Positions 23,485-38,002 of a stretch of 64,000 bases of DNA are shown in pieces. Under the pieces are notes generated by a model. That model was not told the origin of the DNA, did no database searches, and saw only the letters and a list, made by a program, of their open reading frames with translations. The stretch comes from Ruminococcus sp. (GTDB taxonomy: Bacteria > Bacillota > Clostridia > Oscillospirales > Acutalibacteraceae): the NCBI GenBank assembly GCA_017403985.1, contig JAFRDE010000036.1, positions 36,003-100,002 on the forward strand. The letters run 5' to 3'. A program made the position numbers and the translations under genes. The stretch's first letter is position 1; each line of letters opens with the position of its first letter.

Positions 23485-24735
23485 CTATTTAGAGGAATCC
23501 TCTTCCCCTTTGAATTTACGAGCCACATTAAGGCTGTTTTTCATAACTGTTCCTCGTTTTATCGCTTCACTACCAAATCGACCTCTGAGGGAATCGATCG
23601 TCTTATCAAGTTTCTCATCACGTTCATTGTCTATCCTTTGCTCTTCGCCGAATAGAGACAACTGAACGCCCGCGTTATTATCCCTTGTGAGATTTGTAAG
23701 TGATATGCCCATCAATCTGAGAGGGCGTCTATCCTTCCACAACTCTGCTAGCAGCTTTTTCGCAATATCATATACAGCGTTAGTTGTTTCAACCGGCGTA
23801 TTCAACTGTTTCTGATGAGAACGAGTTTTAAAATCTAAGTAGCGAATGGTAACTCCTACATTAAACGCTTTCGAACCGTCGCGACGCATATGTCGTGTAA
23901 CACTGTCTGCCAACGCAAGAAGGATAGCGTTTGCTGCCTCGAAATCGCGTACATCATCTTCAAGTGTAATTGAATTGCTGTATCCTTTCGCTTCTTCAGG
24001 CTCAGCTCGCACAGGTGAATTATCAATACCGTTGGCATAATTGTGAGCCTGTATACTCATTTTATCTCCGATAAGGCTCTTTAATAGTATCGAATCAGTC
24101 TTTGCAAGTTCTCCAATAGTTCGTATTCCTGCGTCATTGAGCTTTTTTGCAGTCGAGCCACCTACAAAGAGTAAATCTCTTACCGGTAAAGGCCACATCT
24201 TATCAGGGATCTCATTCATAAACAACGTATGCACTTTATCAGGCTTTTCAAAATCGCTCGCCATCTTCGCACACAGCTTGTTTTCACCGATACCGACGTT
24301 TACCGTAAACCCCAATTCATCATGAATCTTGTTCTTTATTTCATAAGCCAATGCGATCGGATCGGGATAGATATGCTCTGTATGAGAGAAATCCAAGAAA
24401 CACTCATCAATAGAAAATTCTTCAACTACAGGCGCATATGATCTGCAGATATCTTTAAAAGCTTTAGAGCATTGTGAGTACAACTTAAAATTCGGCGGCG
24501 CGATCAAGAGAGACGGACATTTCCTCAATGCCATAGAAATCGGCTCGCCTGTTTTGATATTATATTGCTTTGCAGGAATAGATTTAGCCAAAACTACTCC
24601 ACGTCTGGATTCAGGCCTGCCTCCAATACAAGAGGGGATCAGACGCAAGTCAGGTAAACCCTGCTTAACTCTTTTCGTTGCCTCCCACGAAAGGAAAGCA
24701 CTATTTACATCAATATGAAATATAAGTCTATCCAT
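23485..24735 (-). CDS. dinB: Y-family DNA polymerase (DinB/UmuC-like)
   Basis: 416 residues from ATG 24735 (GAGGAAAG upstream); the longer open frame adds an implausible leader. The catalytic palm carries FHIDVNSAFLSWEA (first Asp) and EEFSIDECFLDFS (Asp-Glu pair). Thumb helix-hairpin-helix (DLLFVGGSTAKKLNDAGI) and little-finger domain follow, with a beta-clamp-binding motif VQLSLFGEE near the C-terminus. It performs error-prone translesion synthesis. The gene is more AT-rich than the flanking core genes and lies in a degraded region, so it may have arrived with a mobile element. Confidence 0.93.
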   Translation of the reverse strand: MDRLIFHIDVNSAFLSWEATKRVKQGLPDLRLIPSCIGGRPESRRGVVLAKSIPAKQYNIKTGEPISMALRKCPSLLIAPPNFKLYSQCSKAFKDICRSYAPVVEEFSIDECFLDFSHTEHIYPDPIALAYEIKNKIHDELGFTVNVGIGENKLCAKMASDFEKPDKVHTLFMNEIPDKMWPLPVRDLLFVGGSTAKKLNDAGIRTIGELAKTDSILLKSLIGDKMSIQAHNYANGIDNSPVRAEPEEAKGYSNSITLEDDVRDFEAANAILLALADSVTRHMRRDGSKAFNVGVTIRYLDFKTRSHQKQLNTPVETTNAVYDIAKKLLAELWKDRRPLRLMGISLTNLTRDNNAGVQLSLFGEEQRIDNERDEKLDKTIDSLRGRFGSEAIKRGTVMKNSLNVARKFKGEEDSSK

Positions 24736-24944
24736 AATACTTTCCTCACTAATTATGAAACTATTATAGAGGAAAACATGAGATATATCAAGATATTTGA
24801 GGTTAACAATCACTCGGTGTTGCAAACGGAAAGAATAGACAAAAAACTGATTAAATATACCAAAAGCGGTAACTACAAATGGTACCCACAGGTCACCTAA
24901 TGTAATCACCGCTATTTTTACATAAAGAAATACTCACTATCTAA

Positions 24945-25725: not shown

Positions 25726-27012
25726 TCAGCTCGGCAGGGTACAAATGATTCTCAATTGATCATCGGGCGTTTTTTGTGCCTTGATGATACCGCCGTGCTT
25801 TTCGGTGATAGCTCTTGCTACCGAAAGCCCAATGCCGAAGCCCTTATTTTCATCCTTGGAACGGGATGTATCACCGCGATAGAATCGATCGAACAAGCGC
25901 GTCAGCGCTTCATCGCTCAGGGGTTCCTTCATGACGTTTTCCGTTTTCAGAACGATATTCTTACTCGATTTACTCAGTGACACATGAATGTCGGTATCTT
26001 CAGGCGCGTACTTGACGGCATTTTCGCAAAGAATACTGACAAGCCTTTTGATTGCTGCTTCATCGCCGCAATATGTCAGATTATTCTCTGCGTTGACAAT
26101 CATGTTCTTCCCATTGAATTCCGCCATACTGACAAATGGCTCCGCAACAGCATTTACGGCATTTGACAGATTGAATTCGTTTCGTTCAAAAGCGGAATCC
26201 GTTTCATCCATGCGTGACAAATACACCAGCTCATTCACCAGCTTACGCATATCGGCAACCTGCTTTTGCGTCCCCTGCACCCACTCGTTCGCTCCGATAT
26301 CCATTGATAACACATCCATGTTGGCGGAAATGACAGTGAGCGGCGTTTTCAGCTCATGCCCTGCGTCGGTAATGAATTGCTTTTGCCGTTCAATATTATC
26401 CATCATCGGGCGTATCGCTTTCTTGCTGAGGAGCGATACCAACAGCCATGATAATAAGATTCCGACAACGCAAGCACCTATTGAAATGATCAGAAGCGAA
26501 AACACTTTTTCTCTTTGTGATTCAAAATTAAGAAAGACAGCTGCCTTAGAACCGTCTGATTTTTCAGTCACCTGATACAGATAGTTCTTGGTATGACCTG
26601 ACAAGGTATCGGACGACAATACGTCATTTGCAATCGTTAAAAGCTCATCGTCGGTGTATTCGGTCTCCTTGGAGTCTGCGCCGAGGAACAGCTCGCCGTC
26701 GGCGCTTTGTATCGCAATAAAGTATCTTGATTCCTCGACCTTTGTATTCATATGATGATTATTGCCTTTTTGCCGTGTTTGCGGAACGCTGTCATCGGAA
26801 GCCGTTTTCCTGTGATGATTTTCACCGTTCTGGCTATTGGTTTTGCCGTACGCTGCATTATAATTTTCGACTATATAATTCATCGTTTCTTTCAACTCGG
26901 CAGAAGTATTGACATAATGGACAGCATTGATGACGCCGGCAACAAGAAGCATTGCCAGCGTCAGCGCCAATAAAGCGATTTTGATAAAGCGCTGTCGGAT
27001 TTGTTTCATCAT
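25726..27012 (-). CDS. sensor histidine kinase
   Basis: 428 residues. An N-terminal transmembrane helix is followed by an extracytoplasmic sensor domain with two His-rich patches (NGENHHRK, KGNNHHMN) and a PAS/Cache-like segment (YFIAIQSADGELFLG). A second helix follows, then a dimerisation domain with the phospho-acceptor in DAGHELKTPLTVI. The ATPase domain carries LCENAVKYAPE (N box), FDRFYRGD and GFGIGLSVA (G box). It overlaps the response regulator by 4 nt and closes the eight-gene operon starting at 33950. The signal is unknown; the His patches suggest metal or redox sensing, which is speculative. Confidence 0.92.
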   Translation of the reverse strand: MMKQIRQRFIKIALLALTLAMLLVAGVINAVHYVNTSAELKETMNYIVENYNAAYGKTNSQNGENHHRKTASDDSVPQTRQKGNNHHMNTKVEESRYFIAIQSADGELFLGADSKETEYTDDELLTIANDVLSSDTLSGHTKNYLYQVTEKSDGSKAAVFLNFESQREKVFSLLIISIGACVVGILLSWLLVSLLSKKAIRPMMDNIERQKQFITDAGHELKTPLTVISANMDVLSMDIGANEWVQGTQKQVADMRKLVNELVYLSRMDETDSAFERNEFNLSNAVNAVAEPFVSMAEFNGKNMIVNAENNLTYCGDEAAIKRLVSILCENAVKYAPEDTDIHVSLSKSSKNIVLKTENVMKEPLSDEALTRLFDRFYRGDTSRSKDENKGFGIGLSVARAITEKHGGIIKAQKTPDDQLRIICTLPS

Positions 27013-27683
27013 AGTGTACTCTCCAGACTGTATCCGACGCCGCGGATCGCTTTGATCTTCAAGTGTGCGCCGATCTCGGTCAGCTTTTTGCGTAAGGTTG
27101 AAATATTCACCCAGACGACGTTGACTTCTGCGTCGCTGTCCCAGCCCCAGATGCGCTCCATGATCTGATCGATACTGAGTACTGCTCCCGGATGCTCAAC
27201 AAGCATTTCTATCAGCTGGAACGCCTTGTTGTTCAAACTGACACTTTTCTTCCCGCAGGTGATCGTCATAGCAGATTTGTCAAGCTCAATGTCAGCGTAC
27301 TTGATGACGTCATGCTGATAATCCACCTTGCGCCGCAGCATGGCGCGAATACGCGCGAGCAGTTCGGAGGCGGCAAAGGGCTTCGGCAGATAATCGTCCG
27401 CTCCGGTATCAAGCCCTTCCACTCTGTCCTCTATCGCGTCGCGGGCAGTGAGCATCAGCACGGGAGTCGAGATACCCTTACCGCGCATCCAGGCGAGCAC
27501 TTCGATGCCTGTCTTCTTCGGCATCATCCAGTCAAGGATCACACCGTCATAGTCGGCTTGCTCGATATAGTCGAGCGCGTCCTGCCCATTATATACCGCG
27601 TCGACGGAATAGCCGGATCGTTCCAAAAGTGTTTGGACAGCTTTGGAAATGTCACGGTCATCTTCGGCGAATAACAAGCGCAT
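27009..27683 (-). CDS. OmpR/PhoB-family response regulator
   Basis: 224 residues from ATG 27683, which has GGAGGTGACC upstream. The receiver domain has acidic residues EDD near the N-terminus, phospho-acceptor Asp in GVILDWMMPKK and Lys in PKPFAASEL. The C-terminal winged helix carries SLNNKAFQLIEMLVEHPGAV and VNVVWVNISTLRKKL. Members bind tandem repeats in about 11-bp phase, and four such repeats lie upstream of the operon at 34016-34053, so autoregulation of the whole operon is likely. Confidence 0.94.
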   Translation of the reverse strand: MRLLFAEDDRDISKAVQTLLERSGYSVDAVYNGQDALDYIEQADYDGVILDWMMPKKTGIEVLAWMRGKGISTPVLMLTARDAIEDRVEGLDTGADDYLPKPFAASELLARIRAMLRRKVDYQHDVIKYADIELDKSAMTITCGKKSVSLNNKAFQLIEMLVEHPGAVLSIDQIMERIWGWDSDAEVNVVWVNISTLRKKLTEIGAHLKIKAIRGVGYSLESTL

Positions 27684-27704
27684 AAAGGTCACCTCCAATA
27701 TATG

Positions 27705-28364
27705 TTAAGTATAGCAGAACAAAGTCACAACTGCAACAATCAAAAACAGAATATACACGCATAGCTGTACCCACGGCATCGCCTTGCCGAGCTGTTTGTT
27801 GATCTTGCCGCTGAGCGCTCCCGATAAGCCGAAAACAACCAGCATGGGCGTCAGGGAGCTTGCCAAAGCGAATGCCGCGCCGAGCAGTACAGCCGCAGGC
27901 AGCGATAACAGCATCGCATATCCCGCGACCATCGTCAGCGGAACACAGGGATAAGCGCCGTAGGCGAGCCCGACAGAGAAGGACGGGATCAGGCGGGCGT
28001 TGTGCTTTGCAGAGCACTTGCCGCCGCATTTTTTGCAGTCGGACTTACGATTGCGAAACCAACGATAGATCAAAAACAGCGCCGACGCGATCATCACCCA
28101 TGATACCAGATGGTGCAGGTTGAAGCCGCCGACCATGCCGTTTTCGTCAATGAATACCTTACCAATCGCCGAGGTCAGCGCACAGATGGCACAGACCGCG
28201 AGGATCTTACCGAGAAAGTAACTGCCGACATGTTTCATCGAGCTTTTGAAGCCGCCGCCCTCGGTAAGTATGTAGACTGCAAGAAAGGATGACGCCGACG
28301 AGCCGCAGCAGGTACCGCAGCCCAAGCCCACCGATACCGACGCCGCCAATGCTTCCATCAACAT
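27705..28364 (-). CDS. DsbD_2/TauE-SafE-like membrane protein
   Basis: 219 residues from ATG 28364 (AAGGGG 8 nt upstream). About six transmembrane helices. It has paired cysteines in the first helix (GLGCGTCCGS), a cytosolic-loop CKKCGGKC motif and AYPCVPLT in the fourth helix. The fold resembles the DsbD/CcdA-like and UreH-like transporters annotated as sulfite exporter TauE/SafE family. The vicinal cysteines suggest thiol-electron transfer or metal handling across the membrane for the reductase system. It starts 4 nt downstream of the activase gene stop. Confidence 0.78.
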   Translation of the reverse strand: MLMEALAASVSVGLGCGTCCGSSASSFLAVYILTEGGGFKSSMKHVGSYFLGKILAVCAICALTSAIGKVFIDENGMVGGFNLHHLVSWVMIASALFLIYRWFRNRKSDCKKCGGKCSAKHNARLIPSFSVGLAYGAYPCVPLTMVAGYAMLLSLPAAVLLGAAFALASSLTPMLVVFGLSGALSGKINKQLGKAMPWVQLCVYILFLIVAVVTLFCYT

Positions 28365-28368
28365 ACGC

Positions 28369-29148
28369 TCAACCCCTTTCGCTTGCGAGCAGCGCCGCGC
28401 CGATCGCTCCGTTGAACTGCGGATGATTCGCGACAAAGATATCGCGCATCAGCTCATCCTCAAACGCCTTGCGCAGTCCGATATTCAAGGCGCCGCCGCC
28501 TGTCATCAGAACATCGCCGTTCTTCTCGCTCTTTTTCATCATCTTGATGATGCGCTTCGCCATCGACAGGTGCATGCCGGAGAGGATGTCGCGGCGGTCG
28601 AATTTGCGCGCGATCAGGGAGATGACCTCCGACTGCGCGAACACCACGCAGGTGCTGTTGATATCGCAGGGCGCGGTACTCTCTAAAGAGAGAGGTCCGA
28701 CCTGATCGATGGTGGTTTCCAAGATCTGCGCGATGACCTCCATAAACTTGCCGGTACCCGCCGCACATTTATCATTCATGCTGAAATTCTTGACGGAATA
28801 GTTGGCGTCCAGATAGATAATCTTGCTGTCCTGACCGCCGATATCAACGATCATGCCGGGACGATAATCGCCCGGAGCCGTCACGCGCACACCGTAGGCG
28901 TGAGCGGTGATCTCGCTGACGTCGTCGTCCGCAACCTCCAGAATCTTGCGGCTGTAACCTGTCGCCATCGTATAGTCGACACGGGATACGCCGACCTCAC
29001 CCATCAGCTGAGCGAGCAGCTTTTTCGCCGCGCCGTTGTTGTCGATACCGGTGTTGGTGACGCGTGTGCGCAGCACCCTGCCGCGTTCATCGATCAATGC
29101 GGCTTTCAGATAGGTGGAGCCGCCGTCCAAGCCTGCGTATACTTTCAT
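28369..29148 (-). CDS. ATP-dependent dehydratase activase (HgdC/BadF-BcrA type)
   Basis: 259 residues of the ASKHA ATPase fold. It has DGGSTYLKAALID (phosphate 1), VDIGGQDSKII (phosphate 2) and MTGGGALN (adenosine). Cys128 (NDKCAAGTGKFMEV) and Cys167 (STCVVFAQSEV) are the ligands that bridge a [4Fe-4S] cluster between two subunits in this family. Such activases use ATP to inject one low-potential electron into 2-hydroxyacyl-CoA dehydratases or double-cubane proteins. Its substrate should be the product of the gene 4 nt upstream. Confidence 0.94.
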   Translation of the reverse strand: MKVYAGLDGGSTYLKAALIDERGRVLRTRVTNTGIDNNGAAKKLLAQLMGEVGVSRVDYTMATGYSRKILEVADDDVSEITAHAYGVRVTAPGDYRPGMIVDIGGQDSKIIYLDANYSVKNFSMNDKCAAGTGKFMEVIAQILETTIDQVGPLSLESTAPCDINSTCVVFAQSEVISLIARKFDRRDILSGMHLSMAKRIIKMMKKSEKNGDVLMTGGGALNIGLRKAFEDELMRDIFVANHPQFNGAIGAALLASERG

Positions 29149-29152
29149 ATTC

Positions 29153-30433
29153 TTACCTCCCGTATTTTATCAGCTCAATAAACGCTTCCACACGGATGCG
29201 GAGCTGCTCGACGTCTTCTTCGTTATAATCGCTCTCGATACGGATGATGGGGATGCCGAGCTTACCCATTTCCTCCTCCATCACCTGATACTCGTAGTCA
29301 TAGACGAGGCATCCGCGCAAAACGTGATAGATCACACCCTGTACCCTGTAGTCCTCCAGCATTTGCATGATCCTGTACAGCCTGCGCTTGTTATCGACAA
29401 AGGTCGGACAGGTGCAGGGTCGGGTACTTTTGTTCGCTAATGCCCGCATGATGCCGTCGGTGCTTTGATCAACGATAGCGGGCGGATCATATGCGCCGCG
29501 CTCGCCCATACAGGTCTCGTCAGCGACCAGCGCGCCGCCCATTTCTTCGATCAGCAGCGGCAGTTTGAAGTTAGGGAAAACGATCGGCGAGCCTGTGATC
29601 AGGATACGCGGACGGTTCTCCTTGGACGCCATCTCGCCGCGCTTTGCTTTTTGCACTATTTCATCGCACAAATCGTGCATATACCGTGTCCAAAGTGAGA
29701 TGTGGGTGTAGCTGATCGCATTCATCGCCGCCATGTAGTGCGTCCCCTTAACGGCAAGCGGGTATCTGCGCCGCAGTTCGATGAAGCGGGACAGCTCATA
29801 CTGCGCCGCAGCGGTCATACCGCACGCCCATGACAGACGCTCATAGCTGAGTTCGATTCCTGTTACTTCTGTCAGCTTTTGGCTGAACAGATACAGCTCT
29901 CTGACGTACTGCTCCATATCCTCGTCGCGGTCGCGTCCGGAGGGGACATGCAGTGTAACGGTCTTGCGGTGTTCGGCAAGGTAGCCGGCGAGCTTCTTTT
30001 TGCAGTCACAGGTGATCGGCACCGCCATCAGCTGACACTCCTGATACACCGGCATCACACCGATGCTCTCAAAGCCCATGATCGCTTTGACCAATGGACA
30101 GGCGTCGCGCGGCGCGATATCGTCACCGACGTTGAACGCCGTATAGCTGCCGCCGCAGAGCTTAACGGGCATGGCTCCCGCCGCGTAAATCAGCTCGGGC
30201 GGAATCATCACGCAATAGGTACCGACGGACGGTACTCCTTCGGGCTTTACCGCGCCCTGCATATCGACAAAAACGCGCTTGAGCACATCCGTGAACGGTT
30301 TCAGCGTATCCGGCTTATGCGGTAAGTCTTCAATTTTTCTGAGATACTTGATTGCGGTTGCTGAAGATTTATTGAGAAAGCGTGCTTTCCTTCGATCCTC
30401 CGGGGTACCCTGTCGGGTGTATATCTCACTCAT
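29153..30433 (-). CDS. double-cubane/2-hydroxyacyl-CoA dehydratase-type reductase subunit
   Basis: 426 residues from ATG 30433 (overlapping the upstream stop). It belongs to the HgdB/DCCP superfamily and keeps all expected cluster cysteines: LCGG (Cys93), DACP (Cys112), TCDC (142, 144), ETCMG, CTCP and RGC. The number and spacing suit the double-cubane cluster proteins better than simple dehydratases. No CoA-specific feature could be identified. It should be the catalytic, cluster-bearing partner of the activase. The true substrate is unknown. Its closest neighbour in the operon (32195-33457) is a cysteine-free paralogue. Confidence 0.88.
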   Translation of the reverse strand: MSEIYTRQGTPEDRRKARFLNKSSATAIKYLRKIEDLPHKPDTLKPFTDVLKRVFVDMQGAVKPEGVPSVGTYCVMIPPELIYAAGAMPVKLCGGSYTAFNVGDDIAPRDACPLVKAIMGFESIGVMPVYQECQLMAVPITCDCKKKLAGYLAEHRKTVTLHVPSGRDRDEDMEQYVRELYLFSQKLTEVTGIELSYERLSWACGMTAAAQYELSRFIELRRRYPLAVKGTHYMAAMNAISYTHISLWTRYMHDLCDEIVQKAKRGEMASKENRPRILITGSPIVFPNFKLPLLIEEMGGALVADETCMGERGAYDPPAIVDQSTDGIMRALANKSTRPCTCPTFVDNKRRLYRIMQMLEDYRVQGVIYHVLRGCLVYDYEYQVMEEEMGKLGIPIIRIESDYNEEDVEQLRIRVEAFIELIKYGR

Positions 30434-32183
30434 TCTTATCACTCTTTTCATGTGCTGTAAACGGTGCGTATTTGTCGGGTTTCGGTGCGTATTGTTTCAT
30501 GAACTTCATGCGGTCTGCGTTGTAGACCTTCTTTCCGCAGAAGGTGATGGATAACGCGTTGTTCTCGGGACAGCGGCGTACACATTCGCCGCACATAATG
30601 CAGTCGGCGGTGGTAACGTCGATCCGGCGAACGTCCTTGCCCTTGCGCTCGGTAAAGATCGACTTGATCCCCATCGGGCAGGCTTCGTAGCACGCGCCGC
30701 ATTCGGTACAGGCGACCGCGTCCTTTTTGAGCTTGAACAGCGACGCCTTATGCGTCAGCCCGAGGATATAGCCCAGCGGACAGATATTGCAGAAGGCTCT
30801 GCGCTTGAAGAAGCCCGCGACGATCACAACGATCATGAAGAAGCCACCGAGACCCAAGCTCAATTTAAAGCCCGCCAGAGCCGGAGAGATCGCCGCCGCG
30901 GGACAGAAGTCGCAGAAGTTGCCGCCGACAAAACCAATCCCGAGGAAGATGATCAGCATGATCCACTTGACCAGTCTGAGGACGGCGTACATCTTCTCGT
31001 TGAGGGAGATCCCCTCGATGTGCAGCGCCTGTCTTGCTTCATGCGCGACGTCCTGCACGAATCCCAACGGACAGATAAAGCCGCAAAGAACGCGTCCGAA
31101 CAGGACGGCACAGATGATGAAGCTGCCGAAGAAGGAGAGGATCTCCTGCCAGCCTTCGCTGAATAACACGTCGAGATGGCTGAAATAGTAGCAACCGGCG
31201 CTTGTCAGCTGATCGAGGTTGTACGGACAGGCGAGCACCGGAAGCTGGACATTGGTGAATACCGTTCCCGTCAGCCTGCTGCCGAATATCAACAGCCCGA
31301 AGCTGAGGATCATGATGATCCATCTGATCGTCTGAAAGCCGAATACAAATCGCTTTTTGCGTGTATCTTTGGAAGTGATCGCTGTTTTGCCGATCGGCAT
31401 CTTTTCCTTTTTGTACAACAGCTTTCTCAGCAACACATCCAGCGCGATACAGATGATTGATATCAGAATGATCATACCGAACGGTAGCATTGCCGACAGC
31501 CATCGCGTTGTGAAGATCGTGTCAGCCTCCACCTGATAGTTCAGCACATAAGTATTGTGCTCATCGGGGATATAGGAAAAGGTCAGTCCACCGCGGACAT
31601 CGTTGAGGTTCAGATCGTGGATCTCGCCGTTTTCGTCGGTCGTGACCTGCTTTGTCGTGCCGTCCGCAAGCGTTACGGTGATGGTTGCGTCAGGTATGGT
31701 TTCTCCTTCGAGATAGACCGTAAAGTGATCTCTGTCAACATACGCGACCTCAAAGGGTATCTCGTTGCTGAGGAACACGTTTGCCGAAGTGGTATAGCCC
31801 TGCGTATATTCCATATCGGTCTTGGCGATATGGTAAAACTTCTCGATGATCACATCACCGTCATCGTTCGACTCATCGACCCGTACAGCCGCGAAGCTGC
31901 CGAGGAAATCAGACGGTAAGGATTCCGTATAAGCTCCCTCAACGGTTTTGACACCCTCGACCGTCAACGCGTAAACGGTCGCATTTTCCGCGCCGTGCAG
32001 GGTGATCGCGTCGTTATCATAGGTGAAAGATAAATTTTTGTCGTCGTTTTCAACGGTCAATGAGGCACGTGCTAAGGGATCGTCATATTGAAAGAACGCC
32101 AGATCTGCCGCAAAGTATGCCGCGACGCACAGCGCGACCGCGAATACGGCAAAGAGGACTCTTTTTATTGTTTTGTTTTTCAT
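30426..32183 (-). CDS. NapH-like polyferredoxin with extracytoplasmic domain
   Basis: 585 residues. An N-terminal helix anchors an external beta-sandwich domain (~residues 30-220; a segment VTVTLADGTTKQVTTDENGE looks carboxypeptidase-regulatory-like). Five to six transmembrane helices with CGFICPLG, CDFCPAAA and CNICPLG motifs follow, as in NapH/RnfH-type proteins. Two cytosolic [4Fe-4S] motifs end it (CTECGACYEACP; CIMCGECVRRCP). It could pass electrons between the membrane or cell exterior and the cytosolic reductase. GGAGG precedes the ATG; spacing to the upstream gene is 11 nt. Confidence 0.88.
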   Translation of the reverse strand: MKNKTIKRVLFAVFAVALCVAAYFAADLAFFQYDDPLARASLTVENDDKNLSFTYDNDAITLHGAENATVYALTVEGVKTVEGAYTESLPSDFLGSFAAVRVDESNDDGDVIIEKFYHIAKTDMEYTQGYTTSANVFLSNEIPFEVAYVDRDHFTVYLEGETIPDATITVTLADGTTKQVTTDENGEIHDLNLNDVRGGLTFSYIPDEHNTYVLNYQVEADTIFTTRWLSAMLPFGMIILISIICIALDVLLRKLLYKKEKMPIGKTAITSKDTRKKRFVFGFQTIRWIIMILSFGLLIFGSRLTGTVFTNVQLPVLACPYNLDQLTSAGCYYFSHLDVLFSEGWQEILSFFGSFIICAVLFGRVLCGFICPLGFVQDVAHEARQALHIEGISLNEKMYAVLRLVKWIMLIIFLGIGFVGGNFCDFCPAAAISPALAGFKLSLGLGGFFMIVVIVAGFFKRRAFCNICPLGYILGLTHKASLFKLKKDAVACTECGACYEACPMGIKSIFTERKGKDVRRIDVTTADCIMCGECVRRCPENNALSITFCGKKVYNADRMKFMKQYAPKPDKYAPFTAHEKSDKNE

Positions 32184-32194
32184 TACATCCTCCT

Positions 32195-33457
32195 TTATGC
32201 GCTTCGTTTTGCCTTTCTTTTGACGATATTTCTTTGATTCAGCATCTCGCCGAACGCCTCCATACGGATTCTGAGCTGCTCCATATCCTGATACTGATAA
32301 TCGGTCTCCAGTCGGAATACCGGTATGTCAAGCTCTTCCGCCGCCTTTTCGATATATGGCAGCTCAAAGTCGTATTCGATCTGACCTTTAAGGATATGAC
32401 ACACGATACCGTCGGGGTGAAGCTGATTGACGAGGTGCAGGAAGTAGGAATATAAGCCCTCGTTGTTTACTCTTGCGCCCGATGACGTCGCCTGCAAATG
32501 ATCCTGCGCGATTTGATCCAGTATGCGGTCGGCTGAGATCATCCTGCCGCCTCTTTTGACCGATAACGCCGCCTCTAAGGACAGGCTGTCGGCGACCGCC
32601 GCGATCCGCATATTTGCCGAAGCGATCAGCTGCGGTACCTTGTAGTTCGGAAACACGACGGGTGAGCCGAGGATCAGGACATTGGGCTGTGATTTTTGAT
32701 TGAGCATGAACCGCTTGTTCAATGCCTCCAGTTCCTCTGTCAAAGCGGCAGTATGAAGCATCCATTCGTCCGGACTGTCTGCAAAGTACAAACACTGTGT
32801 GACCAACAGTATCGCTTCATCGGTGATAAAGCCCTTTGCCGCATACGCTGTCGATGTAAATCTCTGCCACTGACGATGCGCCCGCGTGACCTTTCTGACA
32901 GCGCGTCGCAGATTGCCGCCGGTCAGATGCTTGTGCATATGCTTCCCGATCTTCTCCGCAAGCATCACCATTTGATCTTTATAGTAGTGAATCGCGTTGC
33001 TCGTGTTGTTCATCGGAGGGACATCCATTGCGGCGACCTGACGCCCCGTGCTTTGCAGGACGGAGATCAGCTTGCGCCTGCTGTCCGAGGATGTTGCCGT
33101 GACAATCAGAGCATTTTTGGTGATATCAAAATCGGGATTGATCAGCCAGCCCAGTGTCGACCGGCTGAACGGATCGGTATCGCGCGGGGTCAGTTCATCC
33201 GCCCAGTGTGCCGTACCGAGGCTGCCGCCGAGGATATAAAAGGGATGATCGCATACCGCGTACAGCAGTTCGGCGGGGATATCGTTGCCGAGGACGATCA
33301 CCTGCGGCTGCGTTTTCTTCAGATAACTTTCATCAAATCTTAACAGCGCTGTTTCCATAAACCATTTCAATTCAAAGAGATTGCTGTTTTCTGTTTCGAT
33401 CCTGCCGATCGTTTCCATGGCTTCATTTTTGAAGCTGTTATGCTCCGTAGATTTCAT
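32195..33457 (-). CDS. cysteine-less paralogue of the dehydratase/reductase subunit
   Basis: 420 residues, alignable by eye along its whole length with the 29153 protein: AELLYAVCDHPFYILGGS, then LTPRDTDPF; VLILGSPVVFPNYKVPQLI; CHILKGQIEYDFELPYI; DYQYQDMEQLRIRMEAFGEM. At every cluster-ligand position the cysteine is replaced: LCGG to ILGG, DACP to DTDP, TCDC to TATS, ETCMG to DSLSL, CTCP to TSSG, RGC to KGQ. The fold is kept and there is no stop or frameshift. It is likely a non-catalytic partner or docking subunit. It overlaps the upstream gene by 20 nt. Confidence 0.85.
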   Translation of the reverse strand: MKSTEHNSFKNEAMETIGRIETENSNLFELKWFMETALLRFDESYLKKTQPQVIVLGNDIPAELLYAVCDHPFYILGGSLGTAHWADELTPRDTDPFSRSTLGWLINPDFDITKNALIVTATSSDSRRKLISVLQSTGRQVAAMDVPPMNNTSNAIHYYKDQMVMLAEKIGKHMHKHLTGGNLRRAVRKVTRAHRQWQRFTSTAYAAKGFITDEAILLVTQCLYFADSPDEWMLHTAALTEELEALNKRFMLNQKSQPNVLILGSPVVFPNYKVPQLIASANMRIAAVADSLSLEAALSVKRGGRMISADRILDQIAQDHLQATSSGARVNNEGLYSYFLHLVNQLHPDGIVCHILKGQIEYDFELPYIEKAAEELDIPVFRLETDYQYQDMEQLRIRMEAFGEMLNQRNIVKRKAKRSA

Positions 33458-33950
33458 AGTATTCCACCGTTGCGCTCTCTGCCTTGGAGCGTCCTTTCAT
33501 ACATCTGGGGCTGACGAGTGAGCAGTTGTGTCTGCACCCGCCGCAGATCAAGGTCGAGAGAAACTCCGTGAGGGACGGTACGTCGCCGCCGGACTGCTGT
33601 TCCGGTTCCGGCTGCCATTCTTCATCGTTGCCGTTCTGTGAGTTGTTATCTTCGTAATACACTTCTTCGGGGGCTTCTGTCACCGCTTCTGTCGGAGGCT
33701 CGGTCGGTATCTCGGTAGGAGCGTACATTTCCTCCTGATACTGCAAAAACAGTTCCGTCGGCGATACCGTAGGAGCGGTCGTAGAGGGCTGAGTCGGCTG
33801 TATCACGGCTGTCGGTTCTGTCTTTTTCCAGTCCGCCGCAATCAGCGCGCTCGGATCGCTCATTACCGCGAACGGCTGTTTGATCAGCGCGTAAGCAAAG
33901 AATACGCCGACTGTCCCCGCCGCGAATCGCTTCAATATCTTATCTCTCAT
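33438..33950 (-). CDS. membrane-anchored Thr/Pro-rich protein with four-cysteine tail
   Basis: 170 residues from ATG 33950 (GGAGG 8 nt upstream). One N-terminal transmembrane helix (GTVGVFFAYALIKQPFAVM) is followed by an extracytoplasmic linker rich in P, T and E (TQPSTTAPTVSPTEL; PTEIPTEPPTEAVTEAPEE). It ends with ICGGCRHNCSLVSPRCMKG: a CxxCxxxCx6C motif that could bind an iron-sulfur cluster. It is the first gene of the reductase operon. Family not recognised; an extracellular redox or assembly role is inference. Confidence 0.72.
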   Translation of the reverse strand: MRDKILKRFAAGTVGVFFAYALIKQPFAVMSDPSALIAADWKKTEPTAVIQPTQPSTTAPTVSPTELFLQYQEEMYAPTEIPTEPPTEAVTEAPEEVYYEDNNSQNGNDEEWQPEPEQQSGGDVPSLTEFLSTLICGGCRHNCSLVSPRCMKGRSKAESATVEYYEIYGA

Positions 33951-33976
33951 ATGCGCCACCTCCTGTGGTTTGGCTC

Positions 33977-34423: not shown

Positions 34424-34645
34424 ATGGCTGTTTCATACAAAAAGCTGTGGAAGCTGTTGATCGACAAGGATATGAAAAAGAAGGATCTGGCTGCCGCTGC
34501 GGGCATCAGCACCTATACGATCAGCAAAATGGGCAAGGGTGAAAATATCACCACCGAAGTCCTTGGCAAGATCTGCGGAGCACTTGACTGCTCCCTTGAC
34601 GATATCATGGAGTTCATCCCCGATGAGCCTAAGGAGGCGAAGTGA
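34424..34645 (+). CDS. XRE-family HTH regulator (antitoxin-like)
   Basis: 73 residues, nearly all one Cro/CI helix-turn-helix (KKDLAAAAGISTYTISKMGKG) plus the typical LGKICGALDCSLDDIMEF tail. GAGGTGAG precedes the ATG. It is followed after one base by the HipA-like kinase gene. In HipBA-type modules the HTH protein represses the operon and neutralises the kinase; the palindrome at 34382-34399 would be its operator. Confidence 0.9.
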   Translation: MAVSYKKLWKLLIDKDMKKKDLAAAAGISTYTISKMGKGENITTEVLGKICGALDCSLDDIMEFIPDEPKEAK

Positions 34646-34646
34646 G

Positions 34647-35723
34647 ATGACCATGCAGAATTACTACATCATGTCCGGCGATACCACTGCGGCGAAGTGG
34701 GAAAACGGCGAGTTGACCGTGCTGAACGATACCCTTCTTCCGCTGTTTCTCAAGCGTGTTCATAACGCCGAGCTATGGCTGGAGACCCGCGCGATCGACT
34801 CTCACCGTGCCAACTCCCGCCTGTTGAAGAAGGCGCTTCGTCTCAAGGAGAAGGATGACGTCTCCACCGTGATCCATGTCAACGGCGCGACCATCACCGA
34901 TAACTACTGGATCAAGCCGATCGACAGTGATCTGACCTATGCGGACGTGAAGTTCAGCGACGATTACTTTGCGCGTCTCGCCCTCAAGGGCACCTATGAC
35001 AGCTTCAACCGCGCCGCGAATTCCAAGCACAGCCGTACCCCTGAGCTGACCAATATCGGTAGCTTTGAGAAGTGCTGGAGGCTGATCGACGGAAAGTGGT
35101 GGATGTATAAGGCGGCAAATCACGACGAGATGTTCTCCGAGCTGTTCATCGCGCGTTTCGGCGCGGCGCTCGGCATGGATATGGCGGTCTATGAGCGCGG
35201 CGATCACTATGTCAAAACATTGGATTTCACCAACGCGGCTGAGGTCAACTTCGAACCTGCCTCGACCTTCATGGACGACAACGACGACTATGAGGATGTG
35301 ATTGCCATGCTGCAGGAGATCTGCCCGCAGGCGATCCCCGATTATGTCCGCATGATCTTCCTCGACACCATCGTCGCCAATCCCGACCGACACACGGCGA
35401 ACTTCGGTCTGCTTCGCAATATCAAGACAGGCGAGCTGATCGGACTGTCTCCCCTCTTTGACCACAACATGGCGCTGATCGCGCGCGGCTATCCGAAAGC
35501 GCCGAAGAAGTCCGACCTCCTGATCCGCCTGTTCAACGACCTGACGGACAACCATCCGCAGTATAAAGAATACCTCCCCGAAGTGAACGAGGAGGTCATC
35601 AGAAAGGTTATCGCCGATCTGCATATGCGCGTCAGGACGAATGATATTGTCGGGCTGATCATGGGCAGGAATGGGATGGTAAACAAGGATGGAGATAATA
35701 TTGAATTCAAAAACAAATTATGA
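34647..35723 (+). CDS. HipA-like Ser/Thr kinase (toxin-like), module 1
   Basis: 358 residues from ATG 34647, immediately after the XRE stop; the longer open frame overlaps XRE and is not used. The C-terminal lobe carries the HipA-type catalytic loop DTIVANPDRHTANFGLL and metal-binding LSPLFDHNMALIA. A nucleotide-lobe segment GKWWMYKAANHDEMFSELF is also present. HipA kinases phosphorylate a cytosolic target and arrest growth; the target here is unknown. The N-terminal part is shorter and different from E. coli HipA. Confidence 0.85.
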   Translation: MTMQNYYIMSGDTTAAKWENGELTVLNDTLLPLFLKRVHNAELWLETRAIDSHRANSRLLKKALRLKEKDDVSTVIHVNGATITDNYWIKPIDSDLTYADVKFSDDYFARLALKGTYDSFNRAANSKHSRTPELTNIGSFEKCWRLIDGKWWMYKAANHDEMFSELFIARFGAALGMDMAVYERGDHYVKTLDFTNAAEVNFEPASTFMDDNDDYEDVIAMLQEICPQAIPDYVRMIFLDTIVANPDRHTANFGLLRNIKTGELIGLSPLFDHNMALIARGYPKAPKKSDLLIRLFNDLTDNHPQYKEYLPEVNEEVIRKVIADLHMRVRTNDIVGLIMGRNGMVNKDGDNIEFKNKL

Positions 35724-37165: not shown

Positions 37166-38002
37166 TCATTTTTTCGCTCCTGTAAATACAAACAGATACT
37201 GATACTTCTTCCTCTGAGCATACAGGATATCCCTCGCGCGCTCGATGATATCCGCCGGATAGTACGCGGCGACCTCGTTCAGCGCGGCGTCGATATCGGC
37301 GCGGGTGAAGCTGAGCTTGACCTGTGTGCCGAAGAGCTCTTCCGCTGCGTCGAGCTGGGTATCGAAATCACGGTCAAAGGGCTTGGCGCAGATCTTGCCG
37401 ATCAGCTGATATACGTCCTCTCCGATCGGATAGTCCTCGGCTGTATCGGCAAGGAGCGATAAGCCGAAATCGAAGTACGGGCAGTAGCGGTATTCTCCCG
37501 TGTCATCATTGAGGATGAACGCGATGTTGTTCGTGTGCCTGTCCTCGTTGAGGAAGAAGGCGTCCAGCTCCAGCATAGCGGTCAGATACGCGCCGACATT
37601 TTCGAGCTTCGTGACCTTTTCGATGAATTCAGCCGTGTGTCTGATTTTATCCTTCGGCTCCTCGTATTGCAGGAGTTCTTTGGCAAAGGAGTTCGCCAGC
37701 CATTGCTTAGACAGGTGTTCGAGGGTAACGATGCTCTCGTTCTTCGCCCTGAAATTATCCGAGTAACAGCCCGTGTATTCCTTTGAGTCAAACACAATCA
37801 TAACGGGCTGATAGCGCACAAAGTCCTTCACGTTCGACTTTTCCAGTAGCCGTGAGATCACGACCTCACACAGCCCCTCATAGCCCATATGGTCAGCCTT
37901 GTACCACTTCCCGCCGACCAGCCATTTAAGCTGATTGCCCTTCGACGACGTCGCTTTGGTGTCGATCAGGGATTCATTTGATACATCAATGCGGTTGATC
38001 AC
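37166..38002 (-). CDS. HipA-like kinase, module 2
   Basis: 278 residues, unrelated in detail to the 34647 kinase but with the same core: KWYKADHMGYEGLCEVVISRL (N-lobe), catalytic LDAFFLNEDRHTNNIAFIL and CPYFDFGLSLLAD. It overlaps the upstream HTH gene by 4 nt (ATGA), so the two are translationally coupled. A growth-arrest kinase neutralised by the HTH partner is the likely role; the target is unknown. Confidence 0.83.
   Translation of the reverse strand: MINRIDVSNESLIDTKATSSKGNQLKWLVGGKWYKADHMGYEGLCEVVISRLLEKSNVKDFVRYQPVMIVFDSKEYTGCYSDNFRAKNESIVTLEHLSKQWLANSFAKELLQYEEPKDKIRHTAEFIEKVTKLENVGAYLTAMLELDAFFLNEDRHTNNIAFILNDDTGEYRYCPYFDFGLSLLADTAEDYPIGEDVYQLIGKICAKPFDRDFDTQLDAAEELFGTQVKLSFTRADIDAALNEVAAYYPADIIERARDILYAQRKKYQYLFVFTGAKK

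Follow-up and report, generated by a model that had tools for sequence, protein, structure and literature searches.

A cysteine-less relative of double-cubane reductase subunits, conserved beside a cysteine-bearing partner in a membrane-linked operon of Ruminococcus sp.

The window, a stretch of 64,000 nucleotides of Ruminococcus sp. contig JAFRDE010000036.1, carries on its minus strand eight successive frames that are separated by short gaps or overlap one another (open reading frame list and Pfam). In the direction of reading they encode (i) a small protein of 173 aa, which matches no Pfam family (33438..33959), (ii) an HGD-D subunit of 420 aa with an ATG start (32195..33457; PF06050), referred to below as the Cys-less subunit, (iii) a NapH-like membrane ferredoxin of 585 aa with Fer4_5 and Fer4 motifs (30426..32183), (iv) a Cys-bearing HGD-D partner of 432 aa (29153..30451; PF06050), (v) an ATP-dependent activase of 259 aa (28369..29148; BcrAD_BadFG, CoA_E_activ), (vi) a DsbD_2 membrane protein of 243 aa (27705..28436), (vii) a response regulator (27009..27698) and (viii) a sensor histidine kinase (25726..27012), the last three assigned by Pfam. 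The 32195 and 29153 genes are the only two HGD-D matches in a search of the window genome, and four further genomes also have two matches each.

The Cys-less protein is a full HGD-D homologue with a predicted fold like that of the double-cubane cluster protein (DCCP). With 166 bits it passes the gathering cut-off of PF06050, 28.4, over positions 4-342 of 342, and it is 27% identical to the 29153 product (98 of 362 columns, BLASTP E 2e-36), in agreement with a preliminary description of this DNA, which had taken it for a paralogue of a double-cubane subunit. The same description had aligned the two subunits end to end; this holds over the HGD-D domain, but not for residues 1-59 of the Cys-less protein, which lie outside the BLASTP alignment. 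The nearest PDB sequence is DCCP for both the partner (E 9.8e-63) and the Cys-less protein (E 4.1e-20). AlphaFold gave models with a mean pLDDT of 89.2 (pTM 0.90) for the Cys-less protein and 88.8 for the partner, and DCCP 6eno is the best structural match of both; for the Cys-less protein (E 5.8e-21, TM 0.84) the model is classed as a DCCP fold. Both proteins score below the equivalog cut-off of the DCCP model NF040772 (150 bits for the Cys-less protein and 310.7 for the partner, against 350). The Cys-less protein, whose ligand columns are without Cys, also remains below the cut-off of the 2-hydroxyacyl-CoA dehydratase HadC, NF052456 (46.2 bits against 700) and matches no bzdN, bzdO or BcrC model at E 0.001, while the partner reaches 53.2 bits against the bzdN cut-off of 453.8.

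None of the seven canonical ligand columns holds Cys in the Cys-less protein of the window. All of the motif replacements listed in the preliminary description are real (from partner to Cys-less protein: LCGG to ILGG, DACP to DTDP, TCDC to SSDS, ETCMG to DSLSL, CTCP to TSSG and RGC to KGQ), except that the third had been read a few residues off, as TATS. To these can be added the change of TYCV, which contains C80 of the partner, to VLGN. The partner has its canonical Cys at 80, 99, 118, 148, 314, 348 and 381, and the former ligand columns of the Cys-less protein are occupied by G57, L76, D95, S124, S291 (where the alignment is uncertain), S326 and Q359. Its remaining Cys (69, 222 and 353) are all off the ligand positions.

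Searches of progressively wider genome sets revealed that the Cys-less proteins form a conserved subfamily. Among 59 genomes, matches were obtained in six (the window genome included): three other genomes of the genus have clear orthologues (93, 92 and 69% identity) and G043, from another family of the order, has a divergent one, whereas all matches in G042 were weak and fell on other HGD-D proteins. When 394 genomes of the order were searched with a profile, 10 matched at E 1e-30 and five of these have the Cys-less form (the window genome, G043, G203, G410 and G345). The same search matched 64 of 398 genomes of the phylum; among the best 29 of these 64, none besides the window genome scored above 138.4 bits, compared with scores of 395-804 for Cys-less members of full length and of 182 for the G345 copy, which is shorter. 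Finally, a scan of 84,980 species genomes by pattern gave 143 confirmed stretches, the best 80 of which were kept. By their titles, these loci come from Ruminococcus, other Clostridia, Lachnospiraceae, Sarcina, Acetobacterium, Anaeromicropila, Coriobacteriaceae and Atopobiaceae; they are not all independent, as L063, L064, L070 and L087 are contigs of G017, G012, G021 and G410, and two genomes occur twice (L097/L112 and L116/L121). Of 33 stretches in viral contigs that fitted a pattern, none was confirmed. Fifteen plasmid records matched the Cys-less protein; among the five listed, the best is a Cys-bearing subunit of Sulfurovum and three are yjiM, which in E. coli is annotated as DCCP.

The cluster Cys are absent throughout this subfamily. 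In an alignment of 83 Cys-less proteins (from the 80 loci, G043, G345 and the window) with 76 partners (from 74 loci, G043 and the window), 72-74 of the 76 partners have Cys at each of the seven canonical columns, the remainder being gaps, while Cys occurs in 0/83 Cys-less proteins at six of these columns and in 10/83 at C148. A second alignment, comprising 55 Cys-less proteins, 47 partners and 34 other homologues, gave the same picture, apart from the poorly aligned C314 column, where the counts differ between the two. All 34 other homologues (5 from the order search and 29 from the phylum search) have kept the seven canonical Cys. The eight rows that retain C148 in the 55-sequence set belong, by title, to Acetobacterium (four), Anaeromicropila, Robinsoniella, Parasporobacterium and Eubacteriaceae, and look like an incomplete stage of the loss. 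The check proposed in the preliminary description, a collection of homologues that consistently lack the cluster Cys beside a Cys-bearing partner, has thus yielded a subfamily. The contrary finding that it had named, homologues in the same operon position with Cys retained, did not turn up in any of the relatives identified, the patterns of the large scan having come from Cys-less proteins. These patterns (KGQ[IL].. and ETDY..) biased the set toward Q359, and therefore both the constancy of this residue and the absence of Cys-retaining orthologues are partly due to selection of the sequences; nevertheless, the six Cys-less proteins found before, and not from, the pattern scan all have Q at this column.

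The Cys-less frame is under purifying selection. As had been claimed, it is intact: the 420 codons from 33457 to 32195 on the minus strand are not interrupted by a stop, and five pairs gave an omega (dN/dS) of 0.11-0.16, one further pair being saturated, compared with 0.04-0.07 in six pairs of the partner gene. Mean distances among Cys-less proteins exceed those among partners 2.3-fold in the tree and 1.8-fold by simple distances. The 55 Cys-less sequences nevertheless share 31 invariant columns, and new residues have become fixed or nearly so at old ligand columns (G57 in 54/55, D95 in 55/55, S326 in 51/55 and Q359 in 55/55), with the C99, C148 and C314 columns variable. A refilled polar pocket would fit the fixed residues better than drift. 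The gene and its Cys losses recur in relatives of between 93% and 24% identity, which, together with the low omega, speaks for the earlier proposal that the loss of the cluster was selected.

The partners have three further near-invariant Cys, namely C139 (47/47), C150 (46/47) and C346 (47/47), which occur in 9, 0 and 0 of the 34 other homologues, respectively. C150 and C346, though not C139, lie two residues from a canonical Cys. The additional Cys may possibly serve a larger or an additional cluster.

In a FastTree phylogeny of 137 tips, the Cys-less proteins (55) and the partners (47) formed separate clades with support of 0.997-0.999 each, joined at 0.86. We also included the subunit of a plasmid module of Sulfurovum mangrovi (NZ_CP087125; L145, 4986-11064), a single subunit that has the seven canonical Cys and C346. 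In the resulting tree of 138 tips it was placed outside the pair (0.831 for all three and 0.906 for the pair), and IQ-TREE analysis of a 41-tip subset gave 94 and 100, respectively. The Cys-less and partner subunits thus appear as sister duplicates with Sulfurovum outside. The evidence for this order is moderate, since there is a single outgroup with a long branch and Sulfurovum contributes one sequence. A membrane-linked single-subunit reductase may have come first, giving rise to the pair by duplication and loss of one cluster.

The five core genes are found in the order Cys-less subunit, ferredoxin, partner, activase and DsbD-like protein. All five are in place in 62 of the 80 loci retrieved, a set in which many are truncated by the end of a contig. 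Full-order loci come from distantly related anaerobes, namely Ruminococcus, Lachnospiraceae, Acetobacterium and Coriobacteriaceae. When only loci that reach far enough are considered, the ferredoxin is present in 75/76, the partner in 63/65, the activase in 55/58, the DsbD-like protein in 52/55 and the small protein in 33/39, the latter gene being placed upstream on the same strand, upstream in divergent orientation, or downstream. Relatives of the sensor kinase and of the response regulator lie near the operon in 15 and 13 of 30 loci, respectively, and no other gene family is common to more than three of them. Around the 34 other homologues the surroundings differ: in up to 1.5 kb on each side, no DsbD-like or small-protein match was detected (0/34), 20 are accompanied by an activase, and two by a ferredoxin match that is weak in both cases (31 and 44 bits).

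Core genes are missing from L063, L070, L109 (activase) and L115 (DsbD-like protein). In L063 (genome G017), the partner and activase genes lie on the contig of the Cys-less gene, at a distance of some 20 kb. In L070, from G021 (91% complete), the Cys-less gene is followed by a partial response regulator and then by a sensor kinase 61% identical to that of the window, as if the middle of the operon had been deleted or lost in assembly; the partner was not found in this genome. It was not found in the G345 genome either, where a 158-aa frame resembling the N-terminus of the ferredoxin (E 1e-6) adjoins the Cys-less gene. In this region (L142, 4832-15270), the Cys-less gene lies near frames that look recombinase-like and TraG-like by eye, possibly a mobile element. 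G043 and G203 contain the genes of the Cys-less subunit, ferredoxin, partner and activase, but the 17 kb covered in each yielded neither a DsbD-like nor a small-protein match.

We also considered the correlation of evolutionary distances as evidence of pairing and rejected it: the value for the Cys-less subunit and the partner (r 0.919) does not exceed that for the Cys-less subunit and the DsbD-like protein (0.932), and control pairs correlate as well. Since the partner is not singled out among the operon genes, this correlation reflects shared inheritance only.

The proteins encoded beside the two subunits have conserved Cys of their own. All 76 NapH-like ferredoxins of at least 380 aa share 16 invariant Cys, eight of them within two ferredoxin motifs and eight arranged in four further pairs. 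NapH proteins share some of these eight further Cys. The ferredoxin of the window resembles NapH/MauN in its Fer4_5 and Fer4 motifs and in matching TIGR02163, but it remains below the cut-off of this model (84.6 bits against 213.05) and differs by the eight invariant Cys outside the ferredoxin motifs; it also has a long N-terminal part that is absent from many relatives. The G043 ferredoxin, of only 237 aa, retains just two of these four additional pairs. In the DsbD-like proteins, Cys 40, 44, 141 and 164 are present in 61/61 aligned sequences of at least 200 aa. The small protein ends in C-x2-C-x3-C-x6-C (CGGCRHNCSLVSPRC), its four Cys being present in 59/59 matched copies of at least 140 aa. 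It has a conserved N-terminus, hydrophobic as judged by eye, followed by a low-complexity acidic and Thr/Pro-rich linker. A 16-row profile of this protein gave no match among PDB sequences up to E 10, and of two orthologues compared with Pfam up to E 1, one had weak matches below the cut-offs and the other none. A hydropathy threshold over 19 residues detected TM-like stretches in the ferredoxin and the DsbD-like protein, and none in the two HGD-D proteins, the activase or the small protein; we would guess that the last of these is anchored in the membrane by its conserved hydrophobic N-terminus.

PMC11971306 describes DCCP as homodimeric, each monomer containing a double cubane, and class I benzoyl-CoA reductase BzdNO and (R)-2-hydroxyisocaproyl-CoA dehydratase HadBC as heterodimers with clusters in both subunits. 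BzdN holds an [8Fe-9S] and BzdO a [4Fe-4S] cluster, and the alpha/beta domains contribute most of the BzdNO interface. The system studied here resembles DCCP (6eno, 7yyl, 7yzm; NF040772) in predicted fold, HGD-D homology and the activase within the operon, and differs from it in having a second subunit without cluster Cys and an operon with membrane electron-transfer proteins. It would share with BzdNO, a member of the same superfamily, the heterodimer of two related subunits with unequal clusters, but there both subunits bear a cluster; likewise, it resembles HadBC (3o3m) in fold and in the putative heterodimer, and differs in that both HadBC subunits are cluster-bearing. The Sulfurovum mangrovi module is also similar, comprising DsbD_2, a NapH-like protein with similar Cys pairs, a DCCP-like subunit and an activase. 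However, it has one Cys-bearing subunit only, and TonB receptors and an RND permease adjoin it; these neighbours may hint at metal handling.

Judging from the sequences, the Cys-less protein probably makes up half of a DCCP-type reductase whose subunit was duplicated, the likeliest arrangement being a heterodimer with one cluster-free subunit that is tied to a transmembrane electron path. After duplication, the 32195 copy would have given up the double-cubane cluster while keeping the fold, and the 29153 copy would have kept its seven canonical Cys, three more being nearly fixed in it. As the preliminary description had proposed, the two products would pair as a heterodimer; the 28369 activase would dock on this dimer, and ATP-driven steps would load electrons onto the cluster-bearing side only. 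The cluster-free side would act as a scaffold, with an altered surface or pocket that may bind the 30426 ferredoxin or a small ligand; the preliminary description had thought of docking of the polyferredoxin or gating of electron entry, either of which may apply. This ferredoxin, the 27705 DsbD-like protein and the four-Cys 33438 protein would constitute the electron path across the membrane. The observed basis consists of the conservation of the gene, the Cys pattern, synteny, purifying selection, the predicted fold and the sister relation, from which we infer the heterodimer, the docking role, and the electron path with its direction. As in the rest of the family, electrons would pass from the activase to the cluster of the partner; they may also be exchanged with the membrane ferredoxin, in one direction or the other, and may be directed outward. 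By analogy with the described relatives, the simplest reading would be a DCCP heterodimer of which just one side carries a cluster.

Taken further, the operon could be viewed as an ATP-driven transmembrane electron pump, in which the asymmetric heterodimer, with the cluster-free half as a docking platform, pushes electrons of very low potential via the 16-Cys ferredoxin and the DsbD-like protein to the anchored extracytoplasmic four-Cys protein, which reduces something outside the cell, and in which the extra Cys of the partner build a larger or additional cluster. We regard this elaborated scheme as doubtful. It became slightly less probable in the course of the analysis because neither the DsbD-like nor the small protein had a match in the 17 kb covered in G043 and G203, a result that left the probability of the heterodimer as it was; for the same reason, and because the G043 ferredoxin lacks two of the Cys pairs, the membrane path is not uniform throughout the subfamily.

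It is unlikely that the Cys-less protein acts apart from its neighbour, as a homodimer or monomer with the function of a chaperone or regulator (it might hold a ligand needed when the cluster is inserted into the partner, or one for the two-component system), with the partner being an ordinary DCCP homodimer. The fixed polar residues at the old ligand columns, which suggest a ligand pocket, the position of the ferredoxin gene between the two subunit genes, the faster evolution of the Cys-less protein and its occurrence without the partner in two genomes all argue for such a role. However, the sister relation and the constant co-occurrence better fit the split of an old homodimer, and what the two genomes without a partner show resembles a deletion or a remnant. 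A less probable alternative still is that the cluster-free pocket binds another cofactor or a substrate and forms a different active site, fed by the cluster of the partner, as the double cubane of BzdN is proposed to serve the active site of BzdO. The fixation of D95, Q359 (in part a consequence of how the set was selected), S326 and G57 would be in accordance with this, and the double cubane of class I benzoyl-CoA reductase is interpreted in PMC11971306 as storing electrons for the other subunit; on the other hand, the C99, C148 and C314 columns vary, and no substrate-specific gene is common around the operon in 30 loci. The possibility that the Cys-less protein is a decaying pseudo-subunit without function, with which its faster evolution would agree, is scarcely credible and was set aside in view of the intact frames in divergent lineages, the omega of 0.11-0.16 and the 31 invariant columns among 55 sequences.

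A conserved cluster-free subunit, as part of the heterodimer favoured here, would amount to a natural experiment on the purpose of the second cluster, and on whether one cluster suffices for ATP-driven electron transfer. PMC11971306 calls the physiological relevance of DCCP reactions unclear; the association with genes for membrane proteins suggests a possible role for such a reductase in a process at the membrane. We found no mention of a cluster-free subunit in the literature covered by our search, outside of which most subscription papers lie, so that a report may already be in print.

As regards the flanks of the operon, a frame directly downstream (23485-24909) was named by eye as a DinB-like DNA polymerase, similar frames being present in 3 of 30 other loci, and two upstream frames (34539-35723 and 37166-38002) look HipA-like by eye.
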